Both the position numbers and the translations under genes were made by a program. Of a stretch of DNA of 24,000 nucleotides, positions 499 to 24,000 are shown in pieces; within the stretch, counting starts at the first letter, position 1, and every line of letters begins with the position of its first letter. The DNA comes from a virus: positions 1 through 24,000 of IMG/VR virus record IMGVR_UViG_3300007229_000083; one strand, given 5' to 3'. The notes under the pieces are model-generated. The model was not told where the DNA came from and searched no databases. It was given only the letters and a program-made list of their open reading frames with translations.

Positions 499-810
499 AT
501 GTCAAAATCAGTATACACAGTTGAAATGATCGAAACAATGACCGCTCAAGCGCCTTTAAACGCTGAAAAGTGTGCGGCCTTGGCTACAGAATTCGGTCTT
601 GGTATTACAAGCCGCTCCGTTATTGCAAAAGCAAAAAGTGCGGGCATTGACTACGAAGTCAAAGCAAAACCAGCTCGCAAAAAAGCGGCAGTCTCAAAGC
701 TGGATATTGTCAAAGCAATTACAAAAGCGGTAGATGCGGATGATGGTTCGCTAGACGGCTTGCTAAAAGCTCCAGCGTCGGCATTGTCTGCTTTATTGAG
801 CAACGTGTAA
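499..810 (+). CDS. Small conserved phage protein, probably DNA-binding
   Basis: First gene after the tandem promoters; GGAG at 487-490 gives a well-spaced ribosome site for this ATG. The 103-residue product has an N-terminal part of about 55 residues (motif TSRSVIAKAKSAGIDY at about 37-52) that reads like a helix-turn-helix. A basic linker (KAKPARKKAAVSK) and a helical C-terminus follow. I have seen similar small proteins (an ITSRSVIAK-type motif, then a basic stretch) in several aquatic phages without a known function. The position suggests an early, abundant regulatory or DNA-binding role, but that is inference. It could be a product acting at the nearby palindromes, though nothing in the sequence shows this. 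Confidence 0.6.
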   Translation: MSKSVYTVEMIETMTAQAPLNAEKCAALATEFGLGITSRSVIAKAKSAGIDYEVKAKPARKKAAVSKLDIVKAITKAVDADDGSLDGLLKAPASALSALLSNV

Positions 811-1005
811 GTGGTTGCCTTAGCTGGATGGATTGGTGCAGGGCTTTTATGCCTTGCACCATTCTTAATAAATTACACAATCGGTAAAATTTTAGCAATT
901 GTTGGTTTGGCATTATTGACCACCCAAGCGGTACAGCAAAAAATGCACAATTTAATTGTTTTAAATATTGTCGGGATTATTGGTTATATTTGGAGTTTAG
1001 TTTAA
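811..1005 (+). CDS. Small integral membrane protein
   Basis: A GTG start directly follows the stop codon of the previous gene, implying translational coupling; no strong ribosome site of its own is visible. The 64-residue product is almost entirely hydrophobic, with two or three probable membrane-spanning helices (about residues 2-19, 24-40 and 48-63) and a short polar QQKMHN turn between the second and third. No catalytic motif is visible. It could be an inner-membrane modulator or holin-like protein, but early-operon placement argues against a lysis role. Function unknown; the GTG start is the main uncertainty, since the only internal ATG comes late. Confidence 0.55.
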   Translation: MVALAGWIGAGLLCLAPFLINYTIGKILAIVGLALLTTQAVQQKMHNLIVLNIVGIIGYIWSLV

Positions 1006-1484
1006 TGTTATATATTTTTGATTTAGATCACACAGTGATTGATAGCTCGCACCGTCAATTGACTCGTGCAGATGGTTCGCTTGATTTAGATAACTGGATA
1101 GAGAATTGCACCCATGAAAAAATTATGCAAGATCGCCTTTTACCTTTGGCTTCTAGCTTCAAAAGGTTTATCAAAGATCCTAGCAAAAAAACGGCAATCT
1201 GTACGGCTCGCGTATTATCAAAGCCAGATTATGAATTTTTGGCTTTACACGATATGCAACCCGATTATATTATGTCCCGCGCTATTGGCGATAATCGTGC
1301 AGATGATCGCATGAAGTTTGCAAAAATATCGCGCTTATTAATTCAGCTCAAAATCCCGCGTGCTCGCTGGCGTGTTGCGGCTTGTATCATTGATGATAAT
1401 TTGTCAGTGTTAAACATGGCAGAGAATGAATTAAAAATAAACGCTCTTAATGCAATTGACCTAAACCAAAAATTACAGGCTTAA
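1005..1484 (+). CDS. HAD-superfamily phosphatase or nucleotidase
   Basis: The ATG shares one base with the previous stop (TAATG) and follows a TGGAG ribosome site at 991-995. An in-frame TTG at 990 is rejected because it would add five residues from within that ribosome site. The 159-residue protein has the HAD signature motifs: DLDHT (residues 6-10, the two catalytic Asp), T67 in ICTAR (motif II), a candidate motif III lysine around K104, and IIDDN (128-132, motif IV). No large cap domain is present, so it is a compact HAD enzyme like those related to the phosphatase half of phage polynucleotide kinase or to 5'-nucleotidases. The substrate cannot be read from sequence. With a nuclease and a PPK2 kinase downstream, nucleotide or nucleic-acid-end processing is plausible. 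Confidence 0.75.
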   Translation: MLYIFDLDHTVIDSSHRQLTRADGSLDLDNWIENCTHEKIMQDRLLPLASSFKRFIKDPSKKTAICTARVLSKPDYEFLALHDMQPDYIMSRAIGDNRADDRMKFAKISRLLIQLKIPRARWRVAACIIDDNLSVLNMAENELKINALNAIDLNQKLQA

Positions 1485-1487
1485 ATT

Positions 1488-2198
1488 ATGAAAAACGTGA
1501 TTCTAACATTAGACACCGAAACGGCTGATTTATCTGGTAATGTTTATGACCTTGGCTATATCATACACGACAAAGATGGGAACCAGCTTACCAGCTATAA
1601 CGCCTTAGTATCTGAGATTTTCACACAGCCAAAAATTATGATGGGCGCATTTTACGCTAAAAAATTGTTCTCGCATTATGCACCCATGTTAGACAATAGC
1701 GAAATCACAATGAAGCCTTGGCAAGAAATCATTGATCAATTGAGATCGGATATTGTAGAGTATAACGTAACGACAATAGCCGCCTATAATATCGGCTTTG
1801 ATATGCGGGCAATGTCCAACACCCATAAAAGCCTAACAGGAGAAGATCGCGTTTTACAGTCTAAAATGCAGGTCTTGGATATATGGCAATTCGCTTGCGA
1901 AGCAAAGCTAAAAAGCCGCAATTATAAAAAGATTGCAGAATCATTCGGTTGGGTATCACCCAAGGGCAACATTAAGACAGGCGCAGAATTCGCTTATCGT
2001 TTTTGTTCAGGTGATCATGGCTTTATCGAAGATCATACAGCCCTAAGTGATTGCGTTATTGAGGTAGAGATATTGCGCCAATGTTTCAAAACAAAAAAGA
2101 AGATACCCTATAACGTATATAATAAAGCGCCTTGGCGTTTAGTAAACCCAAGCGCAAAAGGCAAAGATAAAAATATCCACGGGAGTATAGTTGCATGA
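1488..2198 (+). CDS. DnaQ-like DEDDh 3'-5' exonuclease
   Basis: 236-residue protein with the three exonuclease motifs of the RNase H-like DEDDh group: DTET at 9-12 (Exo I, metal-binding Asp and Glu), NIGFD at 101-105 (Exo II, Asp105), and H183 to D188 in EDHTALSD (Exo III, the HxxxxD form). It is a stand-alone nuclease with no polymerase domain. Likely roles are proofreading in trans, end trimming or host DNA turnover during phage replication. It overlaps the PPK2 gene by 4 bp (ATGA), so the two are probably co-translated. The ribosome site before the ATG is weak, suggesting coupling to the upstream HAD gene, which ends 3 bp earlier. Confidence 0.85.
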   Translation: MKNVILTLDTETADLSGNVYDLGYIIHDKDGNQLTSYNALVSEIFTQPKIMMGAFYAKKLFSHYAPMLDNSEITMKPWQEIIDQLRSDIVEYNVTTIAAYNIGFDMRAMSNTHKSLTGEDRVLQSKMQVLDIWQFACEAKLKSRNYKKIAESFGWVSPKGNIKTGAEFAYRFCSGDHGFIEDHTALSDCVIEVEILRQCFKTKKKIPYNVYNKAPWRLVNPSAKGKDKNIHGSIVA

Positions 2199-2818
2199 AT
2201 TCATTAGAGAGAGAGCAAGCCAAGCTCAACAAATTAGCAGAAAAAAATCGGGGGCGAATCGCTGTTATATTAGAGGGGCGCGATACGGCAGGAAAAACGG
2301 GAACAATCCGAACGCTTACACAATACCTTAACCCGCAATGGTTCAGTGTATGCTTATCATCTAAGCCTAGCGCGCACGCTATGGATAATTGGCTGGCATC
2401 ATGGCTCAAGAAAATGCCCGCTGATAATCAAATAGTATTCTACGATCGGTCTTGGTATAGTCGCGCCTTGGTTCAACCTGTTAATGGTTGGTGTAGTGAT
2501 AAGCAATATAGTAATTTTATGAAGTCCGTTCTAATATGGGAAAAGAAAAAGCCTATCACGTTTATTAAAATGTGGTTGTCTATTTCAGAAGTTGAACAGT
2601 TAGCTAGAATTAATCACCGCGAAGTATCACCGCTCAAGTATTGGAAGCTATCAGAGAATGATAAAATGGCAGTCGAAAAATATAATGCTATGAGTATTAA
2701 AAAAGAATCTATGGTTAATAATTGCGGCGATTGGTTCAGTATAAATTACAATGATAAAAGTGCAGGACGTTTAGCGTTTATAAAAAGATTAAACAAGGAG
2801 TTAGAGAAGATCATTTAA
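2195..2818 (+). CDS. PPK2-family polyphosphate-dependent nucleotide kinase
   Basis: The 207-residue product carries the hallmarks of the polyphosphate kinase 2 family: a P-loop EGRDTAGKTGT at 27-37 (family norm EGRDAAGKGGT), a Walker B region FYDRSWYSR at 82-90 (norm FDRSWYNR), KMWLSISEVEQL at 125-136, and the lid segment PLKYWKLSEND at 146-156. PPK2 enzymes transfer phosphate between polyphosphate and NDPs or NMPs. It is shorter than typical cellular PPK2 (about 230-300), mainly because the N-terminus begins just before the P-loop, but all core motifs are intact. The second P-loop glycine is replaced (GKTG rather than GKGG). It is the last gene of the early operon, followed by a strong hairpin. 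Substrate (AMP, ADP, GDP or dNDP) is not decidable from sequence. Confidence 0.88.
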   Translation: MNSLEREQAKLNKLAEKNRGRIAVILEGRDTAGKTGTIRTLTQYLNPQWFSVCLSSKPSAHAMDNWLASWLKKMPADNQIVFYDRSWYSRALVQPVNGWCSDKQYSNFMKSVLIWEKKKPITFIKMWLSISEVEQLARINHREVSPLKYWKLSENDKMAVEKYNAMSIKKESMVNNCGDWFSINYNDKSAGRLAFIKRLNKELEKII

Positions 2819-2820
2819 GC

Positions 2821-2876
2821 CTATAAAACAAGGGGTTTTTGAATAAAAAAATGTTCAAAAACACCTTGTTTTATAG
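2821..2876. terminator. Long hairpin closing the early operon
   Basis: Arms 2821-2843 and 2854-2876 are 23-bp inverted copies with one mismatch, around a 10-nt A-rich loop (2844-2853). It begins two bases after the PPK2 stop. No U-tract follows on the plus strand, so it may be a barrier, an RNase III or stability element, or a bidirectional terminator rather than a textbook intrinsic terminator. Confidence 0.65.
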
Positions 2877-2933
2877 TGTTAAATGACCACCTTATGCCCT
2901 TACCTAAAAAGTCACAGACCTACATGGACAGAT

Positions 2934-2987
2934 GCAAATGATAATCATTCTCATTAGGGGGCGGTAATGAGACTCATTCTCATTTGC
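2934..2987. promoter_or_regulatory. Two tandem Fur-box-like sites
   Basis: 2934-2952 matches the classical 19-bp Fur consensus (GATAATGATAATCATTATC) at 16 of 19 positions, and 2963-2981 at 15 of 19, counted by eye. Together they also form an imperfect inverted repeat (2934-2956 with 2965-2987, 20 of 23 matching), so an RNA or DNA hairpin is an alternative reading. They sit about 150 bp upstream of the nearest clear promoter. Confidence 0.5.
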
Positions 2988-3027
2988 AGCGCGCCGCGCA
3001 CACTTCCACGTAAACCTCAAGTAAAAC

Positions 3028-3094
3028 GGTAAAGCAAGTAGGTGCCAAAGGTTGCAGAGATGATACCCAATGGTAAAGCAAGTAGGTACCAAAG
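3028..3094 (+). repeat. 23-bp direct repeat, two copies
   Basis: GGTAAAGCAAGTAGG, then TGCCAAAG or TACCAAAG: copies at 3028-3050 and 3072-3094 differ at one base and are 44 bp apart (about four helical turns), just upstream of the promoter at 3133. Inverted GTTGCA (3051-3056) and TGCAAC (3098-3103) lie a few bases outside the two copies. Possible activator sites; I see no further copies in the window. Confidence 0.6.
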
Positions 3095-3120
3095 AAGTGC
3101 AACAAACCTTAACACCCCCT

Positions 3121-3161
3121 GAAAAATATACCTTGACAAATTTCTTAAAATTAAGTATAAT
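3121..3161 (+). promoter_or_regulatory. Consensus promoter for the adhesin genes
   Basis: TTGACA at 3133-3138 and TATAAT at 3156-3161, 17-bp spacer, preceded directly by the A-tract GAAAAATATACC (3121-3132). The same A-tract arrangement occurs before the promoters at 8368 and 12918. The expected start near 3168 gives a leader of about 20 nt with a strong AAGGAGA site. Confidence 0.82.
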
Positions 3162-3187
3162 TTATCAAATCGAAGGAGATTACTACT

Positions 3188-3532
3188 ATGGCTTTTGGAC
3201 TGCAAGTATACGACAGAGACGAAAACCTACTAATGGACACAAGTTCTAAAAGTTGGATGCAGGTGGCCGTCTTAAATATACCTTCAGGAGATACCGCCTC
3301 GACAATATATTTCAGTGGAAACAGTTTACCCGCAGGCATGGAGCTTAGAGTAGCCTTGCAAATTATAAGCGATGTGCCTGTTGACGAAAAACAACTGGTA
3401 CCTACCGTATCGATCAATACCAGTGTACGATCAGTTCTTATTACAAGTACTTCAGGCACTACCACAAACTCAGAGAATAATACTTTTAACGCATATAGTG
3501 CAGCGTGCAAAATACTAATACTAGGAAGATAA
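3188..3532 (+). CDS. Small virion or tail-tip-associated protein
   Basis: ATG preceded by AAGGAGA at 3173-3179. The 114-residue product starts MAFGLQVYDRDENLLMDTSSK. That opening (M-A-F/Y-G-hydrophobic, then a turn and D-T/Q) is typical, in my memory, of a family of small structural proteins in aquatic siphophages. The opening of the next gene product (MAYGFVSKNDDDEYLITDQT) is alike, so the two are probably related at their N-termini. The rest is beta-rich and low in charge, with no cysteine-rich or catalytic motif beyond a single late Cys. It is co-transcribed with the 1434-residue adhesin, starting 3 bp after its stop. Probable role: tail tip, fibre or host-recognition accessory; not proven. 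Confidence 0.6.
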   Translation: MAFGLQVYDRDENLLMDTSSKSWMQVAVLNIPSGDTASTIYFSGNSLPAGMELRVALQIISDVPVDEKQLVPTVSINTSVRSVLITSTSGTTTNSENNTFNAYSAACKILILGR

Positions 3533-3535
3533 GAT

Positions 3536-6500
3536 ATGGCATATGGGTTTGTTTCAAAAAACGACGATGATGAGTACTTAATTACTGATCAAACTACAAA
3601 CTTAACTTTTGTAAAAAGAATCCTCAGCCCCGACTATAGTAGAAGTACTTCACCTAAATCAGGCTTTGGAGGCTTTACCTTATTTAACTATACGGTAAGT
3701 AACTGTAGTTCACTCCCTATACCTTTCTTTACCACACCCTTCTCGGGCAAATCTTATGCCGTAACGCAGGTGTTTCCTACAGGCAATGATAACGAGTGGA
3801 ACATAGAATTAATATCGAATACACGACCGGAAGACCAGGCCAACTATGTGCCCCCTCTAATTGTTACTACCCCTGCACAAGGGTTCGATATGACCCTAGA
3901 GCAGTTCTTTCTGCCTGAAGAGTGGGAAACTCCTATATGGCCGGATAGCACTAGTGCCTCTGGAACAATTGGACAGGTACAGATTATACCTGAAAACTAC
4001 GGTGAGGGACTCACAACTGGACGAGGTCTTAGTAGAGGTGCAATGGTTCTGTGTAGCGACTACTCTTCCTATAACACTTCTACTAGTAGCGTTACTCGAG
4101 CCTATCAGCAAGAGCACATACCTCAAGGCCGTAGAGTTGAATTCTCAAACATACTAAGAACTGGTCAGTATCTTTCTTGGAAAGGCTATTCCTCTGGCGG
4201 ACGCAACGTTCTTTCGGTTTTTCAGTATAATGGTGGGGATATTGAAGGGACTCCAGATACTAATACTGGCTCGGCACCCTACGTACTAACACCTACCGAT
4301 GCCTCTACTAGGCTTAGTAGTTATATACATAGAATTCACGAGAAAAAGCGTGGAGATATGTCTTATACTTACCCACTTATCAAAACGGATTCCAATGCAT
4401 CCGACTATGTTAATAGTAAGACTAGACTGTACATTAGTCAGTGGTCTTATGAAAAAATTAAGGTTGGTCAGTACGCAAACTGGCCTAAAAGCATTAGCGA
4501 TCCTTTTGGTTCTGGCGAGACCTACGTAACCTGGTCAGGCTTCAAGGAAATTACAGGCTTGGGGTATAATGCTACCGTAGGGTACTACTTAGAGGTATCT
4601 GGTAATCACCCTTGTATGGATTTTGACGATATTACCTGGTACTATAGAAACCGGGCACCCGCAGATATTACTATAGGAGGCAGCGTGTTCGAACACTTCA
4701 ACTTCTACGTACGAGGCTGGCCGGGTGTAAGTGCAACAGCAACGGGGAGCCCGCTTTATCAATTTACTTTAACGTCAAACTATACTCCAAGCAATATGGA
4801 CTTTTTCGCAATCCCTCTAGACAACAGCGAAGCTCTTAGACATGAATTACGCTTATACCAAGTCCAGTCACAAGTTACCAACTTCCCTGCACACCTAGAC
4901 CCTGATTTAGGTCAAACTAGTGCAGACAACCCTGCTGACTATACAGAATATTGGGATACCACTTATCATAAACCTAGTTTAGGGATTAACCCTTGGGCAT
5001 ACTCGAACAATGGAAACACCTTACTCGGATTACCTACTACTCAACATGGGTTTGTACTTCGTGCTGGCCTATCAGGTGCCACACATTCTCTAGATAATGA
5101 CATGGACATAGATGTCCTGTTGAAAGGAGATGAAAGCTACCACGTACTACGTAGTGATATTACTAATACTACTCGACCTTTGGGAGATGAAAATAATGCA
5201 GTGACCAACCTTGGTACGTCTCAGTTAGCAAAGCTACAGGTAACAAACTTCACTTCAGACAGTATTTCGTTTAACGAATCAGTAACATTTAATCCTTCGC
5301 AGACTAATCCAACGTCGTTCGGCGTTTTGTATGGAGGACACACGCTACGCATACCTTATAGTACTTCTTTTGTAGACAGTGGAGGACTCGTACGCGTGTA
5401 TAACGGCACCGGCTTCCTTACCTACAATCATGGAGCTTCAGCAGCCTCTCTGTCTCCAGGAGAATACTCTTTAAAGTTCGTAAACATTTATGAAAACCTA
5501 CTTTCCACCAACAGTGCCACCAACGGCATGAGTCCTGCACCTTTTACTCCAGGTACGTGGTCAGTACCAGCGAATCAAAGTACAGAGCTAGCTTTAATGG
5601 CTGATCATTCAAATTATTCATCCAGTGTGTATGCGACTCAATCATCTGGGGGCAGTGTTCATGTCAGATACCGCGTAAATGTTAGAGCACTAGATGGTAC
5701 GCTTTCCGAAATATGGGTAAGCCAACAAGTGTGGAACTATAAACCAACTTCTTCACAACCTCACTTGCAAGTTCGCACTAACATTAGTTTTAGCCAGCTC
5801 CTACAGACTGCGACATATCCCAAAGTAGAGGCGAAGTCACCTCCTCAAGGAATTACAGTAAATATTAAAACAGAAAATATAACAGGTACTAGAACATATA
5901 CATTATACAAGGGAACTACTACTTTTAAGACTGTCAGTACAACCAGTAGTGATTATGACATGACTCTCGATCCTTGGGACCGAACACTCTCCGCAGTACA
6001 TAACACTGATATTGACAATATACTACATGCAAAAGGCCGTACTTTCTACGTCAAAGTTGAGCAATCTGGGACTAATGTACCACCGGCTCACCCCTTTCAA
6101 ATGAGTCTTATTAGGACTCCAGGTAGCACTGTACGTTTAATAAAGCACCATGGAAATAAATCTTACCACACCGCAGTCGATCCATCTCTGTGGAGACACG
6201 CTGGTTTTGTAACTACTCCCGATACAGTTCAGACGCAAACAAGAAGCTTTACTCCCGGCGTAGCTTGCATAAGAGGTGTTGTAGATAATATTCATGGTGT
6301 AAATATACAGCCTTACTACCTCGCCAACATAACGATAGGCTCGACTTCGGCAGTGGCGCGACCTAATAGGGCTTACAGAACTACGCATTCTACTGGTACT
6401 ACATTCGAAGCAATGAATTGCCACGAGAACGTAGGCTTACTTAGCTATTTCCCTACATACCGTTACAGCGATCAAAACCCTTTAAGCACGAAGTATAGCT

Positions 6501-7840
6501 ATGCCAGTAGTAATAGTAGCAAATGGAATTATTCTTATGTGAGCACTGGAGGAGGCACTACACATACAAAAGCCCATCAAGTATCTTTAACCTCCGCAGC
6601 TAGGGGCCTATTACGAGCCAACTATGGGAGATTGACTAGCTCTGGCAGCACGAAAGAGAAGCTTATCTGGAACGGCAGCACAATAACGTCCTCAAATACT
6701 GTAGGAGGGATAGCACAGGGAGTTACTGTAGGAAACTATACTTACACTTTTGACTTTGATAATACTACATATACAGAACACTTTTCGTTTGTACCAGTTA
6801 AACGTACAGGCCCTTACACTGTAGCTGATAACGGAAATTTCGATGTAAACGCCTACAACGTAGGGGGCGCTCCAGAGCTTTACATATTCTCTGAGCCGCC
6901 CTCTGCCCCCACGCCTCATGGCGACCATGGCATGCAAATACTATCAACTGCAGGAGTAACAGTGTTCGACTCCAGATCTAGACCTTTGCTTATAACAGAC
7001 ACTGCAAATATATCTCACCCTTCAACTCCGGTTACGCCCTCTTGTGGAAGTCTCAAGGCCAATAGTTGGGGAGGTAACTTCCAGAGCCATAGTAGCCAAT
7101 TTACTCCAACAGCAAGCTCTACGATATCGCTTACTACTTCTGCGGCGCCAGCGTTCTTTTATAATACAAAGGTACAGTCGCATAGAGAGTGCATCAGAAC
7201 CGAAACAGAAACAGAAAGTGATACTCTTGGACTCAGTGAAAGAACGTACTACCATACTACAAAGTACTGGGCACTATATAAAGGAGGTATAGCACGGACA
7301 GATAACAATACCTCTTCAATTGCCGCGAAGTATATTACGATAGAAAGGGGTGCTTATTACCAAGTGCGTAGAGTGAGCAGCTACCTTTTCGGAGCTGTAG
7401 ATGGAGGGCAGAGTAGTGGACAGCATGGTATCATGCCCTGGAATAATGAGACAATCAATAATATTACCGACACAGTAATATCTATAGACACAGTTCCTTA
7501 CACCGGACCTACATATACAGTAACTACTACTTTTAGTGGTACTATTAAACTGTCTGGCACCGACAGGAATGGCTCATTCTCGAATGTACCGAACAAGACA
7601 TTAACCATGCGCACAGGCGATAGACTAAAAATCACATTTAGTGAGGCATCTATGTCACTAAAGACCGCATATAGTTCCTCGGCAACAAATAATGTACTAA
7701 ATGAAGAGACTATAAATAATGTAGGTACAGCAAATAGTCAAGTAACTTGGGTTCCGCATACTCCAGGTACTTATTACTATACAAAGACGGGCAGTAGCTC
7801 TGGTGTCTATCGTGGCAGTATAGTTGTCACTACAGGATAG
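3536..7840 (+). CDS. Giant tail adhesin / putative receptor-binding protein (1434 aa)
   Basis: An AGGAAGA ribosome site precedes the ATG. The protein is very rich in Ser, Thr, Tyr, Asn and Gly with few cysteines, as expected for a beta-structured fibre or tip protein. It has no signal peptide or membrane segment. Residues 1-22 resemble the N-terminus of the preceding protein and may be the virion attachment segment. Residues about 1326-1434 look like a cupredoxin-type beta-sandwich: a strand-rich start, TMRTGDRLKITF, then VPHTPGTYYYTKTGSSSG and a final GSIVV strand. The Cys and Met copper ligands of true cupredoxins are missing, so it would be structural. Aquatic phage structural proteins often carry such PGTYYY-type domains. 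The middle (about 100-1300) contains several beta-domain-like segments that I cannot assign. Placement just before the packaging genes fits a tail fibre or host-specificity gene. Confidence 0.65.
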   Translation: MAYGFVSKNDDDEYLITDQTTNLTFVKRILSPDYSRSTSPKSGFGGFTLFNYTVSNCSSLPIPFFTTPFSGKSYAVTQVFPTGNDNEWNIELISNTRPEDQANYVPPLIVTTPAQGFDMTLEQFFLPEEWETPIWPDSTSASGTIGQVQIIPENYGEGLTTGRGLSRGAMVLCSDYSSYNTSTSSVTRAYQQEHIPQGRRVEFSNILRTGQYLSWKGYSSGGRNVLSVFQYNGGDIEGTPDTNTGSAPYVLTPTDASTRLSSYIHRIHEKKRGDMSYTYPLIKTDSNASDYVNSKTRLYISQWSYEKIKVGQYANWPKSISDPFGSGETYVTWSGFKEITGLGYNATVGYYLEVSGNHPCMDFDDITWYYRNRAPADITIGGSVFEHFNFYVRGWPGVSATATGSPLYQFTLTSNYTPSNMDFFAIPLDNSEALRHELRLYQVQSQVTNFPAHLDPDLGQTSADNPADYTEYWDTTYHKPSLGINPWAYSNNGNTLLGLPTTQHGFVLRAGLSGATHSLDNDMDIDVLLKGDESYHVLRSDITNTTRPLGDENNAVTNLGTSQLAKLQVTNFTSDSISFNESVTFNPSQTNPTSFGVLYGGHTLRIPYSTSFVDSGGLVRVYNGTGFLTYNHGASAASLSPGEYSLKFVNIYENLLSTNSATNGMSPAPFTPGTWSVPANQSTELALMADHSNYSSSVYATQSSGGSVHVRYRVNVRALDGTLSEIWVSQQVWNYKPTSSQPHLQVRTNISFSQLLQTATYPKVEAKSPPQGITVNIKTENITGTRTYTLYKGTTTFKTVSTTSSDYDMTLDPWDRTLSAVHNTDIDNILHAKGRTFYVKVEQSGTNVPPAHPFQMSLIRTPGSTVRLIKHHGNKSYHTAVDPSLWRHAGFVTTPDTVQTQTRSFTPGVACIRGVVDNIHGVNIQPYYLANITIGSTSAVARPNRAYRTTHSTGTTFEAMNCHENVGLLSYFPTYRYSDQNPLSTKYSYASSNSSKWNYSYVSTGGGTTHTKAHQVSLTSAARGLLRANYGRLTSSGSTKEKLIWNGSTITSSNTVGGIAQGVTVGNYTYTFDFDNTTYTEHFSFVPVKRTGPYTVADNGNFDVNAYNVGGAPELYIFSEPPSAPTPHGDHGMQILSTAGVTVFDSRSRPLLITDTANISHPSTPVTPSCGSLKANSWGGNFQSHSSQFTPTASSTISLTTSAAPAFFYNTKVQSHRECIRTETETESDTLGLSERTYYHTTKYWALYKGGIARTDNNTSSIAAKYITIERGAYYQVRRVSSYLFGAVDGGQSSGQHGIMPWNNETINNITDTVISIDTVPYTGPTYTVTTTFSGTIKLSGTDRNGSFSNVPNKTLTMRTGDRLKITFSEASMSLKTAYSSSATNNVLNEETINNVGTANSQVTWVPHTPGTYYYTKTGSSSGVYRGSIVVTTG

Positions 7841-17535: not shown

Positions 17536-18836
17536 TGAGTAGAGCTAGTCAGCAAAAGTTTCTTGAAAAGCTGAATAAAGAGTTGTCCCGTAGTTCTACT
17601 GAATACCGAAAGAATACAGCCAATTATCAGGCTCACTCTTTCACAGTAACTAGAAAAGGTCTTAGGCGGGCTTTAACTCTGGTGCTACAAAACCAGTTTA
17701 CCGATATAAGTAAGTCCGATGTAGATACTATACTGACATTGCTTGAACCAGATGTTCGAAAGCTGATAAAACATATTGGTACCGATATTAAAAGAATAGC
17801 GGGCAAAGACCCCAGTGTTCGATTGCATACTTTTACCACTGCTAAGATTGTCGCTTCCTTTGATGCCAAGACAACTAACCGATATGCAAAGATATATAGC
17901 ACATATAAGCAACAGATTAAGATAATTGCTTCGCATTTTTCTAAGTCGGTAAAAATAGTATTGGGCAAAAAGACAGAAATGCAGGCAGGTGACATATTCA
18001 ACCTAGAGCATGGACACTTAGAAGGTATTGTAGAGTCGCAAGTACGAGACGCAATAGACAACTCCGTACTTGATGATAGTCAACGATCTAAGTCTGTTAT
18101 AATAAAGTTCTTTAAGAAACGAAAGATAGACCTTAAAGTTGTACGAGATACCAAAACAGATCAGATGAACGTTTTCATAGGTTCTGCCGTAGATAATAAA
18201 CAAGAGGGCGGTATCTCAAAGAATAGAAAGGCGGATCTCAAAAAGACTTTAAATAAGGCAATACAAGAGTTAGCAGATGGTGGATACTTTACAGAGTTAA
18301 AAGGCTCAGACTCTTTTAAACAGATAAAAGAAAAACAAGCAAAAAATGCAGTATTAAAATCTTTTAAAGGGAAAAAGAACCATAAAGTTTCTAAACTAGA
18401 AGAGGTTAAGCACTCTACAACAGTTGCAAAGATGAATAGCGCTGGAAAAGGTGCTGTAACTTCTGCTGCTTTAAAACGTAAAAGACTGAAAAAAGCCAAA
18501 AAGAATCAAGGCGTATCTTCAACCCCTTTACAGCTAATTGCTTCTTTAAATAAAGCATTGCCAGAGAAAATTAGAGAGAACATGAATGAGCCTGCCCTAC
18601 AGAATCGCACAGGTAGATTTTCAAACAGCGTCAAAGTTACTGACATAGCAACCACAAAAACGGGGTTGCCAAGCATAGGATACACGTACCGCAGAGACCC
18701 ATATGAGGTATTCGAGGCTAGTAGCGGTTCCAGGTTTGCAGATTCAGACCGAGACCCGAGAAAGTTAATAGATAAGTCTATAAGAGACATAGCATCAAAA
18801 CTTGCGATTGGCAGATTCTTTACTAGGAGAACATAA
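17535..18836 (+). CDS. Large basic neck/structural protein with gp10-like C-terminus
   Basis: GTG start sharing one base with the upstream stop. 433 residues, Lys-rich, mostly helical. The last 90 residues or so (from about 350: NEPALQNRTGRFSNSVKV, IGYTYRRDPYEVFE) resemble the HK97 gp10-like/neck family motif in which 'RTGRFxxSVxV' precedes a Y.....P.E.F segment. The N-terminal 330 residues contain long helices and a basic Lys-rich stretch (about 255-325) that I cannot assign; they may be a virion or DNA-binding extension. Between connector and tail terminator, the expected role is head closure or tail joining. It is much longer than usual gp10-like proteins (about 120-180 aa), so the N-terminal extension is notable. 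Confidence 0.6.
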   Translation: MSRASQQKFLEKLNKELSRSSTEYRKNTANYQAHSFTVTRKGLRRALTLVLQNQFTDISKSDVDTILTLLEPDVRKLIKHIGTDIKRIAGKDPSVRLHTFTTAKIVASFDAKTTNRYAKIYSTYKQQIKIIASHFSKSVKIVLGKKTEMQAGDIFNLEHGHLEGIVESQVRDAIDNSVLDDSQRSKSVIIKFFKKRKIDLKVVRDTKTDQMNVFIGSAVDNKQEGGISKNRKADLKKTLNKAIQELADGGYFTELKGSDSFKQIKEKQAKNAVLKSFKGKKNHKVSKLEEVKHSTTVAKMNSAGKGAVTSAALKRKRLKKAKKNQGVSSTPLQLIASLNKALPEKIRENMNEPALQNRTGRFSNSVKVTDIATTKTGLPSIGYTYRRDPYEVFEASSGSRFADSDRDPRKLIDKSIRDIASKLAIGRFFTRRT

Positions 18837-19288
18837 TGACTACAAGAACTTATACAACTAGAAGAAGCGCCATAGTAACTGCTCTAGCAGAACAATTAAA
18901 AGCTATAGATGGTACAGGGACTTTCTTGACCAATCTATTCGATAACGTAAGTCCTAGACTATTGTTTTGGGATGAAGTTACTGACTTTCCTGCGGTCCAC
19001 CTAAACGCAGGACAAGAAACCAGAGAATACCAAGGCGGTGGATACAAAGATAGATTTCTAACTATAACTGTTAGATGCTACGTAGACGAAGAAAACGCGC
19101 AAGATGCGCTAGCTGCAGTTATGGAAGATGTAGAGACAGTAGTAGAGAATAATTCTAGACTACTATATACGGACGCTCAAGGCAGTACACATTACACACA
19201 CCAAATCTCTCTCCTTAGTATAGATACTGACGAGGGCGTACTAGAGCCACTAGGAGTAGGAGAACTACAAATAGAGGTTCGATATTAG
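18836..19288 (+). CDS. Tail terminator-like protein
   Basis: The ATG overlaps the previous stop (TAATG). 150 residues: an N-terminal helix (TRRSAIVTALAEQLKAIDG), the strand FPAVHLNAGQETREYQGGG, then DRFLTITVRCYVDEENAQDA and a helix LAAVMEDVETVVENN. The end is TDEGVLEPLGVGELQIEVRY. This order matches the tail-terminator/minor tail U-like fold that caps the tail tube and joins it to the head. In many aquatic siphophages a protein with 'ETREYQxGG...TDEGVLxPxGVGE' stands just before the tail-tube gene, as here. Confidence in a tail-completion role is good; the exact subfamily is from memory. Confidence 0.75.
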   Translation: MTTRTYTTRRSAIVTALAEQLKAIDGTGTFLTNLFDNVSPRLLFWDEVTDFPAVHLNAGQETREYQGGGYKDRFLTITVRCYVDEENAQDALAAVMEDVETVVENNSRLLYTDAQGSTHYTHQISLLSIDTDEGVLEPLGVGELQIEVRY

Positions 19289-19351: not shown

Positions 19352-20464
19352 ATGTCAATTTTTATGAGTAGAGACGTAAAACTATACGTTTCCGGGATCA
19401 GCAGCCAAGTTTGGGAAATCCCAGTATTAGAGGGCTATTCGTTCTCTCAATCAACAAACACAGCAGAAGTTACTTTATCAGAAGCAACTGGTGCAACTGG
19501 AGTTAGTCGCCGAGGCAGAAAGATGTTTAATAACTCTTTAGCCCCTGTAGAGTTCTCTTTTTCGACTTATGCTAGACCTTTTAAAGGTACTGCAGCTTAC
19601 GCTAAAGCAGCTGGCGATACCGACAACGATATCCACGCCGTAGAAGAAATTCTTTGGGGCTTGTTGCTAGGTGCAGACACTTGGACAGCCGGTGATATGA
19701 AACGTGGCTCATCTGCAGTTTCTACCTCAGATGGTACCGACTTGAACATTGAGTTTGCTCAGTCTAATGTACCAACCTTGGCTTCTGGAGTTGTATTAAC
19801 GTTTGTAATCCCTAATGAATCAGGTAGTGGCTCTATGGCTTATGAAATCAACGGTGCTGCTTTCAACGAAGCAAGTATTGATTTTGATATCGAAGGCATT
19901 GCAACAATTAACTGGTCGGGCATGGGCACTACTATTACTGAAGGGTCTGCTCCAACAACAACTATAGATGAGAAGATTACAAGCACAAGCAACTTTATCC
20001 AAAACAGATTAAGTACTTTGGCTCTAACTGCATCTGCAAGTGAATCAATCTTAGGTTCTTACAACTTGGTCTTAACCGGCGGAAACATTACAGTTTCTAA
20101 TAACCTTACTTTCTTAACTCCAGAAGAGTTAGGCGTTGTTAATAAGCCTATTGGCCATGTTACAGGAACTCGAAGTGTTTCAGGTTCTTTAACTTGTTAC
20201 TTGGATGATGCTGCGGCTGGATCTGCAGACTTGTTTGAAGATTTAACTCTTTCAACAGGTAAGATCACCAATGAGTTTGACTTAACTGTTAATATCGGTG
20301 GCACAACTTCAGCCACTCCTAGATTGCGTTTTCAGTGTAACCACTCACACTTCCAGATTCCACAACATAGTTTCGACGATGTTGTATCTGTAGAGGCTAC
20401 CTTTGATGCACTTCCTCAGTTCATTGACGGCACTGACGAGTGTTCAATCGCTTACTTCGCTTAA
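19352..20464 (+). CDS. Major tail (tube) protein
   Basis: AGGAGA (19340-19345) gives a strong ribosome site. The 370-residue product is beta-rich, Thr/Ser/Gly-rich and ends with a short aromatic tail (IAYFA). Features: VKLYVSG near the start, a central APVEFSFSTYARPF (about 64-77), VEEILWGLLLG (about 96-106), INWSGMG (about 185-191), NFIQNRLST at 214-222, and VSNNLTFLTPEELG from 248. It sits between the tail-terminator gene and a paralogue and is followed by a strong terminator, as expected for an abundant tail-tube subunit. The 63-bp gap upstream holds GAACA-ga-TGTTC (19303-19314) but no clear promoter. Confidence 0.8.
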   Translation: MSIFMSRDVKLYVSGISSQVWEIPVLEGYSFSQSTNTAEVTLSEATGATGVSRRGRKMFNNSLAPVEFSFSTYARPFKGTAAYAKAAGDTDNDIHAVEEILWGLLLGADTWTAGDMKRGSSAVSTSDGTDLNIEFAQSNVPTLASGVVLTFVIPNESGSGSMAYEINGAAFNEASIDFDIEGIATINWSGMGTTITEGSAPTTTIDEKITSTSNFIQNRLSTLALTASASESILGSYNLVLTGGNITVSNNLTFLTPEELGVVNKPIGHVTGTRSVSGSLTCYLDDAAAGSADLFEDLTLSTGKITNEFDLTVNIGGTTSATPRLRFQCNHSHFQIPQHSFDDVVSVEATFDALPQFIDGTDECSIAYFA

Positions 20465-20482: not shown

Positions 20483-20506
20483 AAGGGGCTTCGGCCCCTT
20501 TCTTTG
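20483..20506 (+). terminator. UUCG-loop terminator after the tail-tube gene
   Basis: AAGGGGC (20483-20489), TTCG loop, GCCCCTT (20494-20500), then TCTTT: a perfect 7-bp stem with a UUCG loop and a short, interrupted U-tract. It lies just before the tail-tube paralogue, so it would act as an attenuator, reducing that gene relative to the main tube protein. Confidence 0.82.
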
Positions 20507-20517
20507 GAATATAGAAT

Positions 20518-23500
20518 ATGGCTAATGACTTTTATTATGGTAATGAAACTAAGGTATACCTTGAGAGCAAGGATGGCCACTTGTGGCAGATTATTGTTAC
20601 AGGCACCCCTTCGTTCTCACAGGGATCTGAATCAGTAGAGTTAGCTACTCCTACTTTAGTAGGGGGAGGTACGACAAGAAACTCCTTAAATAGATTTAAT
20701 AAAAAGATAAAAGCTAGCTATGCTCCTGCAAACTTCTCTTTCTCGACTTTCGTTAGGCCTTTTACACAAGGATCTAAGGAGCGAGCAGTGGAAGATGTAC
20801 TGTGGGAGCTAGTTTCCAAAGGTTCCGCCACTTCATATGCTAATTCCCCTTCTACAGTATCAGCAGCATCACAAGTAGTAACAATGTCAAGAGACGAGCT
20901 ACTAGATACCTTTAATTTGTACTTTGTATTTGAAAATAATACTGGGTATAAACTAAGAGGTTGCAAGCTAAATAGTGCAGATGCCAGCGTTGCTATAGAT
21001 TCTATGGCAACAATCAACTGGAGCGGGTACGGAACGCATCTAGAAAAGTTCGACCCACAGGATTTAGTACAGTCTGCAGATAACTCGCCACAACATAGAA
21101 GCGGCAACATTGACAGTGGAAAAATGGCTGCAATGGAAGGCAATACTGCAATATTTGCACACTCATGGGAAAACGCCCCTGATACAAATAACTACGATGG
21201 TGCTGCTCATGTGTATGTAACAAATGATGGTGGGTGTACGTGGGAGTTTCAACAGACTTTACGACCTACTGAGACGGCAGGCCATGAGTACTTCGGGGTC
21301 TCTATGGCTCTCGAAGGGGATAAACTTGTTATAAGTGCAGTCAATCGCCTGGGCGGAGACGGAGGATTCTACTACTTTACTAGAGCTGCAGGAGTCTGGA
21401 CTCTTGTAGCGGCTTATTCTAGTCCTGACTTTGACGAGGATAATGGTGACGATGACGGAGTCTCAGGGGACTATGATGATGATAGACTAGGTCAATCAGT
21501 AGCAATGAGCGGAGACTATTTAGTAACAGGTGTATCTGGGCACGATTCCGGAGATAGTTTAAACGATGATATTGGTGCAGCAGTTGTATGGAAGCTTGTA
21601 AGCAACGCATGGGTGCAAAAGGCTATATTATATAACACAGATGGAACGGACGCGCAATACGGAAGAAGTGTGCAGATAGATGGAGACAGAATTGTTATTC
21701 CGAGCAGAAAAAATCTTTATTTTTACACTACATCAGACGCGGGAGAAACTTGGTCACTAGAGCAGACATTAAGTATCGGGGCCGGTAGTAAACCAATAGC
21801 ATCACAGAACGAAATATGTAAATATAACCGCCAGGGCGGAACTTACGGTACCGTCATGCTTGGCATGGCCTACATAGACTCACATGCCGGCTTTTTTGAT
21901 AGCGGTGCAGTGCTGGTAATTACACATAATGGAACAGCTTGGTCCCTTACACAAACTATAGCGTCTCCTCTTGCAGCAACGCAACATTATTTCGGACGCC
22001 ACCTAGACTTTGATGGAACTACACTATTAGTCGCAGGCTCAGACGATTACTCACGTTGGGGCTCTACCGATACGAATTACGGTAGAGGCAAGCTATACCA
22101 ATACAACTTAAACGAAACAACTTGGGAGTTATCCCATACGTTAGATACTGAAAAAGCATTATCTTTAGGCGGTGCAATGGGTCGTACTAACTATAGCTTC
22201 ACATTGAGTAATGGCAATATATTAACTAGATGTCTAGAAAACCGAACAGGATTAAGCGTAGCTACTACTACCCGAACTGTGACCAGCATTACAGCAGACT
22301 ACATAACACTAAATGCCCGCTACAATCCTAGAAGCTACGATTCTGTAGTTATCAACGGACAAAGGTATTTTGCTATTTTGTTATCTCCAGCCGGGGTCAA
22401 CCACGCTGTAGGTCTTAGTACGAACTGGGTTATGAACCAGGAGGGTAGAGGGCGAATAGACTGTACTACTTTAGGTCTATCTGTAAATGATAGTTTAGTT
22501 TTTGAAGGCGAGAATATACACTCTTGGCACTTCTTTAAGGCTGCCTTCCACCCTTCAATGTGTGAGAACAAAACGGGGTTAGCGCTAACAGATAACTACA
22601 TAGTAAATAAACTTAGTAGCATGGAATTTGGTCTGCAAGAAAGTAAAGAAGTTCTTTATCGTGGTGGCATGCTTCCTGATTCGCCTACATCGCATGATTA
22701 TTTTGGAGCGGCAATGGACATGCAGTACCCTTGGTTGATGGTATCCGCATATGGAGATGATACTGCCACAGGCGATGCAGGCTCAGTACAAGTTTTTAAA
22801 TTTGATGAAGCTACTAACGCTTGGGTATTTAAACAGACTTTATTTTCCTTCTCACCTGAAGGAAGTGCACAATTTGGAGGACCCCATGATGGTAGTCCAA
22901 TTTCTATCTCACCTTGCGGTAGGCAGGTAGCAATAGGAGAACAAGGCAGAGGTACAGATACTACAGGCCGTGTAAATATCTTCTCCTTAAAAGCAGACCT
23001 GTGGCAGCAAGAAGCAATTATAGACCCTACAGGCACCGCTACCGGTGACACGTACCTAGAATTTGGCAGGGACGTGTCTTTATATCACAACATGCTTATT
23101 GTAGGTTGCTGGCTAGATAATACTTCTACAGGCAACGACAAAGCAGGCAGCGCCGCTATTTATAGAAGAGAAGGAGCGTTGTGGACTAAGAGAGAGCATT
23201 TAGTTGGGTCAGATCATGGCGGCACCAGTGCAGCACACGATTATTTCGGTAGAGGAGTAGCTATATATGACGGAGTGGCTATAGTATGTGCTTCTGGAGA
23301 AGGTGCCGGTACTTACTACTCCTTCAAATCCACAAATAATGGAAAAGACTGGTCGCTAGCAGAGAGAAAATACTTGCCTACCGGAGCATCTCAAGGAGGT
23401 CGCCAAGTCAAGCTTGCAGAAGGTACCATGATCATTGGAGAGCACGGACTAGATGTACTGAATGGCTTAAGTAACACAGGAGGTGTATTTGTCTATAATA

Positions 23501-24000
23501 CTACTTCGACATTAGGCGTATTTAATCATGTAACTACTCTGCTTCCACTAACTGTAGACTTTGCTGATTTAGAGGTTAATGATTATTTCGGACTGCCTGT
23601 AGATATGGACACGTCTGAGAACGGTAAGAATGTTACTATTGTGGCAGGCGGTCATACGTTCGACACCAACGGAATAAATTCTGCAGGCCTCGGATACATT
23701 TGGAACTCTACTGATTACGGAAAATCTTGGTCTGAAGGACGTACGTTTCACCCTTCCAAGTTGGCCGATGCCGATGCTTTTGGACACTCATTAGCAGTAA
23801 GCAATGGACATATTGCAGGTGGATCTAGAATTGGTGAAGTACCGGGATTAGCGGGAAATGATCATGGATATGTAGCTACATTCAGAACTGGCGTAAACTT
23901 CCCTATTACTGCAGCAAGTGTTAGCATAAACAACGGGTTAATGCCTATAACTTATCCTTTGCTAAAAGAGAAAGATCGCCCTATCGGTTTCACTTCGGGG
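20518..24000 (+). CDS. Tail-tube-like protein with two inserted beta-propellers (partial, runs off edge)
   Basis: Open from ATG 20518 to the window end (1161 codons, no stop). Residues 1-172 parallel the main tail-tube protein: PSFSQ, APANFSFSTFVRP, VEDVLWELVSKG and INWSGYG at 166-172. The tube fold then appears interrupted. Residues about 175-545 hold roughly six FG-GAP-like blades (EYFGVSMALEGDKLVISAV, DRLGQSVAMSGDYLVTGV), some with Asp-boxes (TSDAGETW). An unassigned domain follows at about 550-690. NYIVNKLSS (693-701) parallels tube-protein NFIQNRLST. Residues about 722-1125 hold seven more blades (for example HDYFGAAMDMQ, STDYGKSW). VSINNGLMPITYP from 1135 then resumes the tube match. 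Acidic loops such as DEDNGDDDG suggest calcium. Only a weak ribosome site is seen. Likely surface-exposed, binding host surface or glycans. Confidence 0.75.
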   Translation, partial: MANDFYYGNETKVYLESKDGHLWQIIVTGTPSFSQGSESVELATPTLVGGGTTRNSLNRFNKKIKASYAPANFSFSTFVRPFTQGSKERAVEDVLWELVSKGSATSYANSPSTVSAASQVVTMSRDELLDTFNLYFVFENNTGYKLRGCKLNSADASVAIDSMATINWSGYGTHLEKFDPQDLVQSADNSPQHRSGNIDSGKMAAMEGNTAIFAHSWENAPDTNNYDGAAHVYVTNDGGCTWEFQQTLRPTETAGHEYFGVSMALEGDKLVISAVNRLGGDGGFYYFTRAAGVWTLVAAYSSPDFDEDNGDDDGVSGDYDDDRLGQSVAMSGDYLVTGVSGHDSGDSLNDDIGAAVVWKLVSNAWVQKAILYNTDGTDAQYGRSVQIDGDRIVIPSRKNLYFYTTSDAGETWSLEQTLSIGAGSKPIASQNEICKYNRQGGTYGTVMLGMAYIDSHAGFFDSGAVLVITHNGTAWSLTQTIASPLAATQHYFGRHLDFDGTTLLVAGSDDYSRWGSTDTNYGRGKLYQYNLNETTWELSHTLDTEKALSLGGAMGRTNYSFTLSNGNILTRCLENRTGLSVATTTRTVTSITADYITLNARYNPRSYDSVVINGQRYFAILLSPAGVNHAVGLSTNWVMNQEGRGRIDCTTLGLSVNDSLVFEGENIHSWHFFKAAFHPSMCENKTGLALTDNYIVNKLSSMEFGLQESKEVLYRGGMLPDSPTSHDYFGAAMDMQYPWLMVSAYGDDTATGDAGSVQVFKFDEATNAWVFKQTLFSFSPEGSAQFGGPHDGSPISISPCGRQVAIGEQGRGTDTTGRVNIFSLKADLWQQEAIIDPTGTATGDTYLEFGRDVSLYHNMLIVGCWLDNTSTGNDKAGSAAIYRREGALWTKREHLVGSDHGGTSAAHDYFGRGVAIYDGVAIVCASGEGAGTYYSFKSTNNGKDWSLAERKYLPTGASQGGRQVKLAEGTMIIGEHGLDVLNGLSNTGGVFVYNTTSTLGVFNHVTTLLPLTVDFADLEVNDYFGLPVDMDTSENGKNVTIVAGGHTFDTNGINSAGLGYIWNSTDYGKSWSEGRTFHPSKLADADAFGHSLAVSNGHIAGGSRIGEVPGLAGNDHGYVATFRTGVNFPITAASVSINNGLMPITYPLLKEKDRPIGFTSG

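Follow-up and report, generated by a model that had tools for sequence, protein, structure and literature searches.

The region examined here is a window of 24,000 nucleotides (positions 1 to 24,000 of the IMG/VR record IMGVR_UViG_3300007229_000083) from an uncultured, probably marine virus of bacteria; the term marine is inferred from related MAG contigs and phages, not from the sample record. A search of genome contigs returned solely phage-like contigs in marine MAGs, and therefore no host can be named. The plus strand of the window, on which all features of the tail region described below are located, carries a T5-type tail module with genes for a head-tail adaptor, a neck/tail completion-like protein, a tail terminator, a tube protein and a decorated paralogue of the tube protein. 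The tail terminator gene (18836..19288; phrog_3907 tail terminator, E 3.2e-31) is the first of the tail unit. It is followed by the gene for the major tail tube protein (19352..20464), a 370-aa protein of the T5 pb6 type that has two tube subdomains and lacks an Ig domain (PF18906, E 4.4e-14; phrog_3575, E 5.4e-48). A terminator-like hairpin with a short T-rich tail (AAGGGGC-TTCG-GCCCCTT, 20483..20509), recognized by consensus match only, separates the tube gene from that of the decorated paralogue (20518..24000), which is open at the window edge and of which the first 1161 of 1264 codons are present. Both the 1161-codon frame and the 370-aa tube protein were found as the first-pass annotation of this DNA had described them. 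Elsewhere in the window, positions 3536-7840 contain an open frame of 1434 aa without a Pfam or PHROG match.

The truncated gene could be completed from IMGVR_UViG_3300022178_003189, a 34.7-kb contig (L007; related contigs are likewise given by L numbers) that evidently represents the same virus, as only one mismatch was present in 12,643 overlapping bases and none in the gene of the decorated paralogue. The remaining codons lie at L007:12644-12955, and the full protein has 1264 aa. Further downstream in L007 are genes for a p140-like tube protein (340 aa), the tail-assembly chaperones, the tape measure protein and the distal tail protein, the last being a separate gene (L007:18465-19205, phrog_1302). 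The gene of the decorated paralogue is also complete in L003, L004, L005 and L006. It should be noted that all members of this group come from metagenome or MAG contigs, with no isolate and no virion data, which leaves room for an assembly chimera or a misread frame. Against this stand a 1264-aa frame of identical length in five contigs, partial copies in others and the occurrence of the gene in three sequence backgrounds, and we give such an artefact practically no credence; a chimera or a frameshifted gene was rejected on the basis of independent contigs with the same frame.

Comparison with T5 pb6 (7qg9) revealed an end-to-end match for the 370-aa tube protein (E 2.5e-36). The decorated paralogue matched the same protein twice (whole-protein E 4e-14): its residues 22-182 aligned with pb6 25-183, and its residues 1126-1240 with pb6 222-338. 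Furthermore, phrog_3575 also matched the full protein in two stretches in order (E 5e-23). The second pb6 stretch is weak when taken alone (i-E about 0.01). As the two stretches flank 38 residues in pb6, these 38 residues correspond to 943 residues here. The first-pass annotation had aligned three segments of the decorated paralogue with the upstream tube protein, and all of them were recovered. The first, representing tube subdomain 1 (residues 1-175, 20518..21042; matching pb6 25-183 and the tube protein), had 29% identity to the tube protein over residues 5-177 (BLASTP, E 2e-16), and the part of the protein within the window matched phrog_3575 'major tail protein' (E 8.5e-16). The second, NYIVNKLSS at 693-701, appeared in none of 20,000 shuffles of the protein and belongs to the first strand of tube subdomain 2 (residues 690-706, NYIVNKLSSMEF, 22585..22635), whose motif is conserved in the tube family; within the N-aromatic-I-x-N-K/R-L strand, N, aromatic/F, I and N are invariant. 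The third segment represents the rest of tube subdomain 2 (23893..24000, residues 1126-1161, within the window; matching pb6 222-338) and continues past the window to residue 1264 in L007. A gene lacking this remainder would have refuted the annotation; it is present, on the evidence of the phrog_3575 stretches and the individually weak pb6 match at 1126-1240.

The tube strand at 693 separates the two inserts and therefore places insert 1 in the inter-subdomain linker and insert 2 in the first hairpin of subdomain 2. Thus, the earlier view that propellers are nested in the tube fold, and not appended to its end, holds, whereas the accompanying view that both occupy tube-fold loops has to be refined: only insert 2 is in a true hairpin. 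Taken together, the pb6 homology on both sides, a paralogue with empty sites (L067, see below), the FG-GAP matches and the model of the second propeller support the presence of a second tube-fold protein with nested propellers, and we consider this nested architecture almost certain. Among phage records, none covered 80% of the window protein, and the best matches were tube proteins or free FG-GAP proteins.

The two large inserts that had been proposed were confirmed, with about 513 and about 418 residues. Insert 1 (residues 176-689, 21043..22584) is an FG-GAP propeller of at least six blades, as indicated by PF14312 stretches and blade alignment. Insert 2 (residues 707-1122, 22636..23883) is, according to an AlphaFold2 model, a seven-bladed FG-GAP propeller closed by its entry strand. 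The first-pass annotation had read both as strings of FG-GAP blades with some Asp-box motifs, in agreement with the PF14312 FG-GAP_2 profile (E 1.5e-35, six significant stretches; 121.6 bits against a cut-off of 23, with single repeats up to about 32 bits) and with four Asp-box motifs. Its count of seven blades in insert 2 was borne out by alignment and model; its six blades in insert 1 could be clearly recognized, but a stretch of ~140 aa at the end remained unresolved and may comprise blade 7 with a further nested beta domain. No similarity was seen when region 540-690 was compared with its counterpart in L020.

The blades of insert 2 could be aligned one by one with those of FG-GAP propellers that are related to a Vibrio phage nt-1 protein, in an alignment that contained only two tube C-parts beside the propeller rows. 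The AlphaFold2 model of residues 690-1264, built from 21 rows (mean pLDDT 70.3, pTM 0.72, blade blocks mostly 65-92), has 28 strands in seven groups of four, and the strand right after the tube segment completes blade 7. The entry strand (690-706) is of low confidence in this model and the tube part only of moderate confidence. Another AlphaFold model, of residues 65-1264 from seven near-identical rows, had a mean pLDDT of 34.5 and was used solely to note strands in the first three blades. Foldseek analysis of the insert 2 model identified integrin alpha head propellers as the best PDB matches (E 2.5e-15; TM-score 0.62 for the alpha5beta1 target). The integrin alpha-subunit head has the same seven-bladed FG-GAP fold, with 9-16% identity in the listed matches, and no shared function is implied. 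Among the BFVD matches are a phage 'hemagglutinin' and a virion structural protein of a cyanophage, and a PDB sequence search with a profile of the propeller region gave no match. Considering the Asp-box motifs and the occurrence of sialidases and a rhamnose-glucuronate lyase in the Foldseek list, the propellers might act enzymatically on surface polysaccharide and break it down, for example in a sialidase- or lyase-like manner. However, these enzymes rank lower, the sialidases well behind the integrins, and the top matches are non-enzymatic; BNR profiles stayed below their cut-offs and no catalytic motif was identified. An enzymatic role thus appears very unlikely.

Between L007 and L005/L006, a cassette comprising both propellers and the strand between them (21041..23906, gene nt 524-3389) was 98% identical at the DNA level, whereas identity was 63-67% in both tube flanks and mostly 54-77% in the neighbouring genes (97% for gene190 in L005). 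The edges of the cassette, at codons 175/176 and 1129/1130, coincide with the tube/propeller borders. Synonymous divergence (dS) was about 0.025 in the cassette and more than 2 outside, which argues for recent exchange and not constraint; preservation of the propeller block by selection was rejected, since synonymous sites are nearly identical too. Judging from this pattern, the propeller pair is a unit recently swapped between phages as one cassette, independently of its carrier, and recombination at the tube/propeller borders would be the process that moves it. For L007 versus L003/L005/L006, dN/dS was 0.66-0.76 in the cassette and 0.09-0.15 in the flanks, although these pairs are not independent; for the L005-L006 pair, it was 0.28 and 0.24, respectively. 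Relaxed constraint could not be separated from diversifying selection in these values. A search of viral contigs with the cassette recovered the same group and L020 only.

Phylogenetic analysis placed the decorated paralogue outside the main tube-protein clade, grouped with six other paralogues. On the basis of their tube-only parts, these seven group together in a clade that is separate from 22 tube proteins (support 100/100), although several branches are long. The genes of all seven lie between those of a tube protein and a p140-like protein. Two paralogues, in L067 (346 aa) and L145 (358 aa), have no inserts, and the empty sites could be seen in L067; the L020 paralogue (941 aa) has one propeller, at the site of insert 2; the paralogue of the window type (1264 aa) has two; and that of L104 (1448 aa, L104:5605-9951) contains about 1100 unrelated residues at the site of insert 2. 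This L104 insert lacks a Pfam match; close to the protein end, there are weak matches to PHROG families of baseplate wedge and head closure proteins. The tube proteins L006:7995-9404 and L104:4147-5550 are 86% identical and each has ~95 extra aa in subdomain 1. Since these similar tube proteins are found beside very different decorated paralogues, the modules are mosaic.

The gene downstream of the decorated paralogue in L007 encodes the p140-like protein P0004, whose match to PF23779 was weak (21.1 bits against a cut-off of 27); its relatives scored above the cut-off. A tblastn search with P0004 against 50,697 phage records gave no match at E 1e-3, and the PF23779 profile did not match the decorated paralogue. 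In T5, p140 (PF23779) is a tube paralogue that is encoded with baseplate genes, like the decorated paralogue, and forms one dedicated ring (PMC10038345); unlike the decorated paralogue, it is undecorated. As p140 has its own likely homologue in P0004, the decorated protein should be regarded as an additional ring protein. Longer p140-like proteins of 554-565 aa in three relatives (L044:9218-10915, L053:9338-11017 and L169:6224-7888) contain a nested Laminin_G_3/ConA-like lectin domain near the N terminus, and the extra sequence in longer p140-like proteins is located in the first hairpin of subdomain 1 or ahead of it. This hairpin is the counterpart of the site of insert 2, and therefore the insertion of binding-type domains there is a recurrent feature of the group. 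The same three relatives also have, beside the normal tube protein, an extra upstream tube protein of 626-741 aa (L044:6013-7893, L053:5857-7890 and L169:2518-4743), which is considerably extended at the N terminus, has an insert in subdomain 1 and lacks Pfam matches.

The intergenic sequences provided information on the possible expression of the decorated paralogue. All seven paralogue loci have a GC-rich hairpin, in most cases GGGGC-TTCG-GCCCC, with a T-rich tail in the interval that separates the tube gene from the paralogue, and a promoter-like site, TTGAC[A/T]-17-TATACT, after the paralogue, whereas none of the seven has a promoter-like site in the interval before the paralogue. In 60 relatives without the paralogue, the interval from the tube gene to the p140-like gene contained the same promoter-like site in 55 and the hairpin in 47. 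Based on this organization, the tube unit appears to end before the paralogue and the baseplate unit to start after it, and expression of the paralogue probably depends on read-through. The hairpin before the gene, the lack of a promoter-like site of its own and the baseplate promoter-like site after it together suggest a low dose. The T tract of the hairpin is short and interrupted, and its role as a terminator is a consensus match without termination data. In L007, the site between the decorated paralogue and the p140-like gene (L007:12972-13000) is a strong sigma-70-like promoter, TTGACA-17-TATACT.

A low dose, the adjacent genes and the fold shared with the tube protein could also be accommodated if the decorated paralogue was a minor subunit mixed with the ordinary tube protein along the tail, comparable to the extended form in SPP1, with scattered propellers instead of one distal ring. 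Decorated minor tube subunits produced by frameshift are known in SPP1 and lactococcal 936 phages (PMC6669499). However, the paralogues form a deep separate clade with their own interface residues and are closer to the dedicated ring of T5 p140 (PMC10038345) than to an extended form, and we consider mixing along the tail unlikely. We favour a role as a low-copy second ring protein of the tail tube. In T5, pb6 has a duplicated tube fold that forms trimeric, pseudo-hexameric rings (PMC5717097). By analogy with pb6 and p140, the two pb6-type subdomains identified in the decorated paralogue may fold into one third of a pseudo-hexameric ring. The sequence shows that the propellers leave the tube at the subdomain linker and at the first hairpin of subdomain 2. 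A trimeric ring would then bear six propellers, which should be outside the tube because the lumen cannot hold them. Gene order and the terminator-like hairpin suggest that few copies would be set between the last tube ring and the baseplate, gene order being a mere guide to particle position. Coating of the whole tail seems unlikely from the sequence data; a low-copy ring is favoured over such a coat because of the terminator-like hairpin before the gene, the lack of its own promoter-like site and the adjacent gene for the baseplate tube protein. In the absence of virion or copy-number data, a distal low-copy ring remains an inference that we hold with some reservation.

By inference, the propellers most likely serve as adhesins that bind a sugar or protein of the host surface ahead of irreversible attachment. 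The first-pass annotation had suggested large ligand-binding discs on the tail surface, which is still an inference, as neither ligand nor virion data exist. Support for binding to the host surface is only indirect and comes from the cassette exchange and from related propellers on tail-fibre proteins. The propellers can also be structural, protective or enzymatic. A purely mechanical or protective decoration without a host ligand, which would stiffen the tail or cover the tube-baseplate joint or collar, is conceivable, considering that the Ig domains of the tube protein are dispensable in lambda and SPP1, that the pb6 Ig domain is not required for T5 tube formation (PMC5717097) and that L067 and L145 manage without any insert. 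However, border-exact exchange of the cassette, constraint weaker than in the tube, the unrelated cargo of L104 and the lectin-like inserts of the neighbour are typical of adhesins and make such a decoration improbable. Thus, adhesion is the likely function of the propellers, even without binding data, and the combination of nested architecture, distal low-copy ring and adhesin role is, with the same reservation as for the ring, the reading that we prefer.

Most of the tube decorations known so far are single Ig or FN3 domains at the C terminus. Such C-terminal decorations have been described in lambda, SPP1, T5 and 936 phages (PMC5717097, PMC6669499). T5 pb6 (PDB 5NGJ, 7QG9; PHROG 3575; PF18906) resembles the decorated paralogue in having two tube subdomains per chain, with homology on both sides of the inserts, but it is the main tube protein and has one C-terminal Ig-like domain, whereas the decorated paralogue is a second copy that contains two nested propellers and lacks a C-terminal Ig domain. 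The 936 TpeX protein and the SPP1 and lambda decorations also place host-binding or decorative domains on the tail tube (PMC6669499); these are C-terminal extensions, some of them made by frameshift, in contrast to nested inserts in a separate gene. In the evolved Dit of lactococcal skunaviruses, a carbohydrate-binding domain nested in the tail-hub protein is present or absent between phages and aids adsorption (PMC10688798). It shares with the decorated paralogue a nested domain inside a tail protein, but its carrier is the distal tail protein, its insert is much smaller and different, and it belongs to another phage group. Thus, nested inserts in the distal tail protein and C-terminal tube decorations are already known, and propellers nested in a tube-fold protein are without a precedent that we could find. 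In the literature examined, which covered few subscription papers, neither such propellers nor a dedicated decorated tube ring was reported.

A duplicated tube ring appears to have been turned into a carrier of 900 or more nested propeller residues whose cargo moves at domain borders. As a tentative extension, one that we would not yet put above its alternatives, these proteins may constitute a new adhesion device in a large group of marine T5-type siphophages: a dedicated tube ring in which the beta1-beta2 hairpin and the subdomain linker are general insertion sites and exchangeable cargo helps to set host range. The cargo, on this equally provisional basis, would be none, one propeller, two propellers, an unrelated module of ~1100 aa, or lectin domains in the neighbouring p140-like ring. 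The empty-site series (zero, one or two propellers, or other cargo) provides a test ground for how phages gain and swap adhesion modules, and the decorated paralogue is a natural scaffold for the display of large domains on a tube.

Propellers related to insert 2 were also identified in other phage proteins. The nt-1 protein VPFG_00309 and the tail-fibre-like protein of L188 have a propeller of seven FG-GAP blades, each of which aligns with one blade of insert 2; in both proteins, this propeller is C-terminal and preceded by other domains, including tail-fibre domains in L188, and is not inside a tube fold. The nt-1 FG-GAP protein has an N terminus of ~50 residues in common with glycine-rich phage proteins (L151:7803-9011, L225-L241), which may be an attachment domain for exchangeable ends. 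In addition, FG-GAP propeller similarity to the cassette was observed in a giant hypothetical protein of Sinorhizobium phage Phosso (L187:1787-9227), encoded by an 11-kb gene (record 57900-68978).
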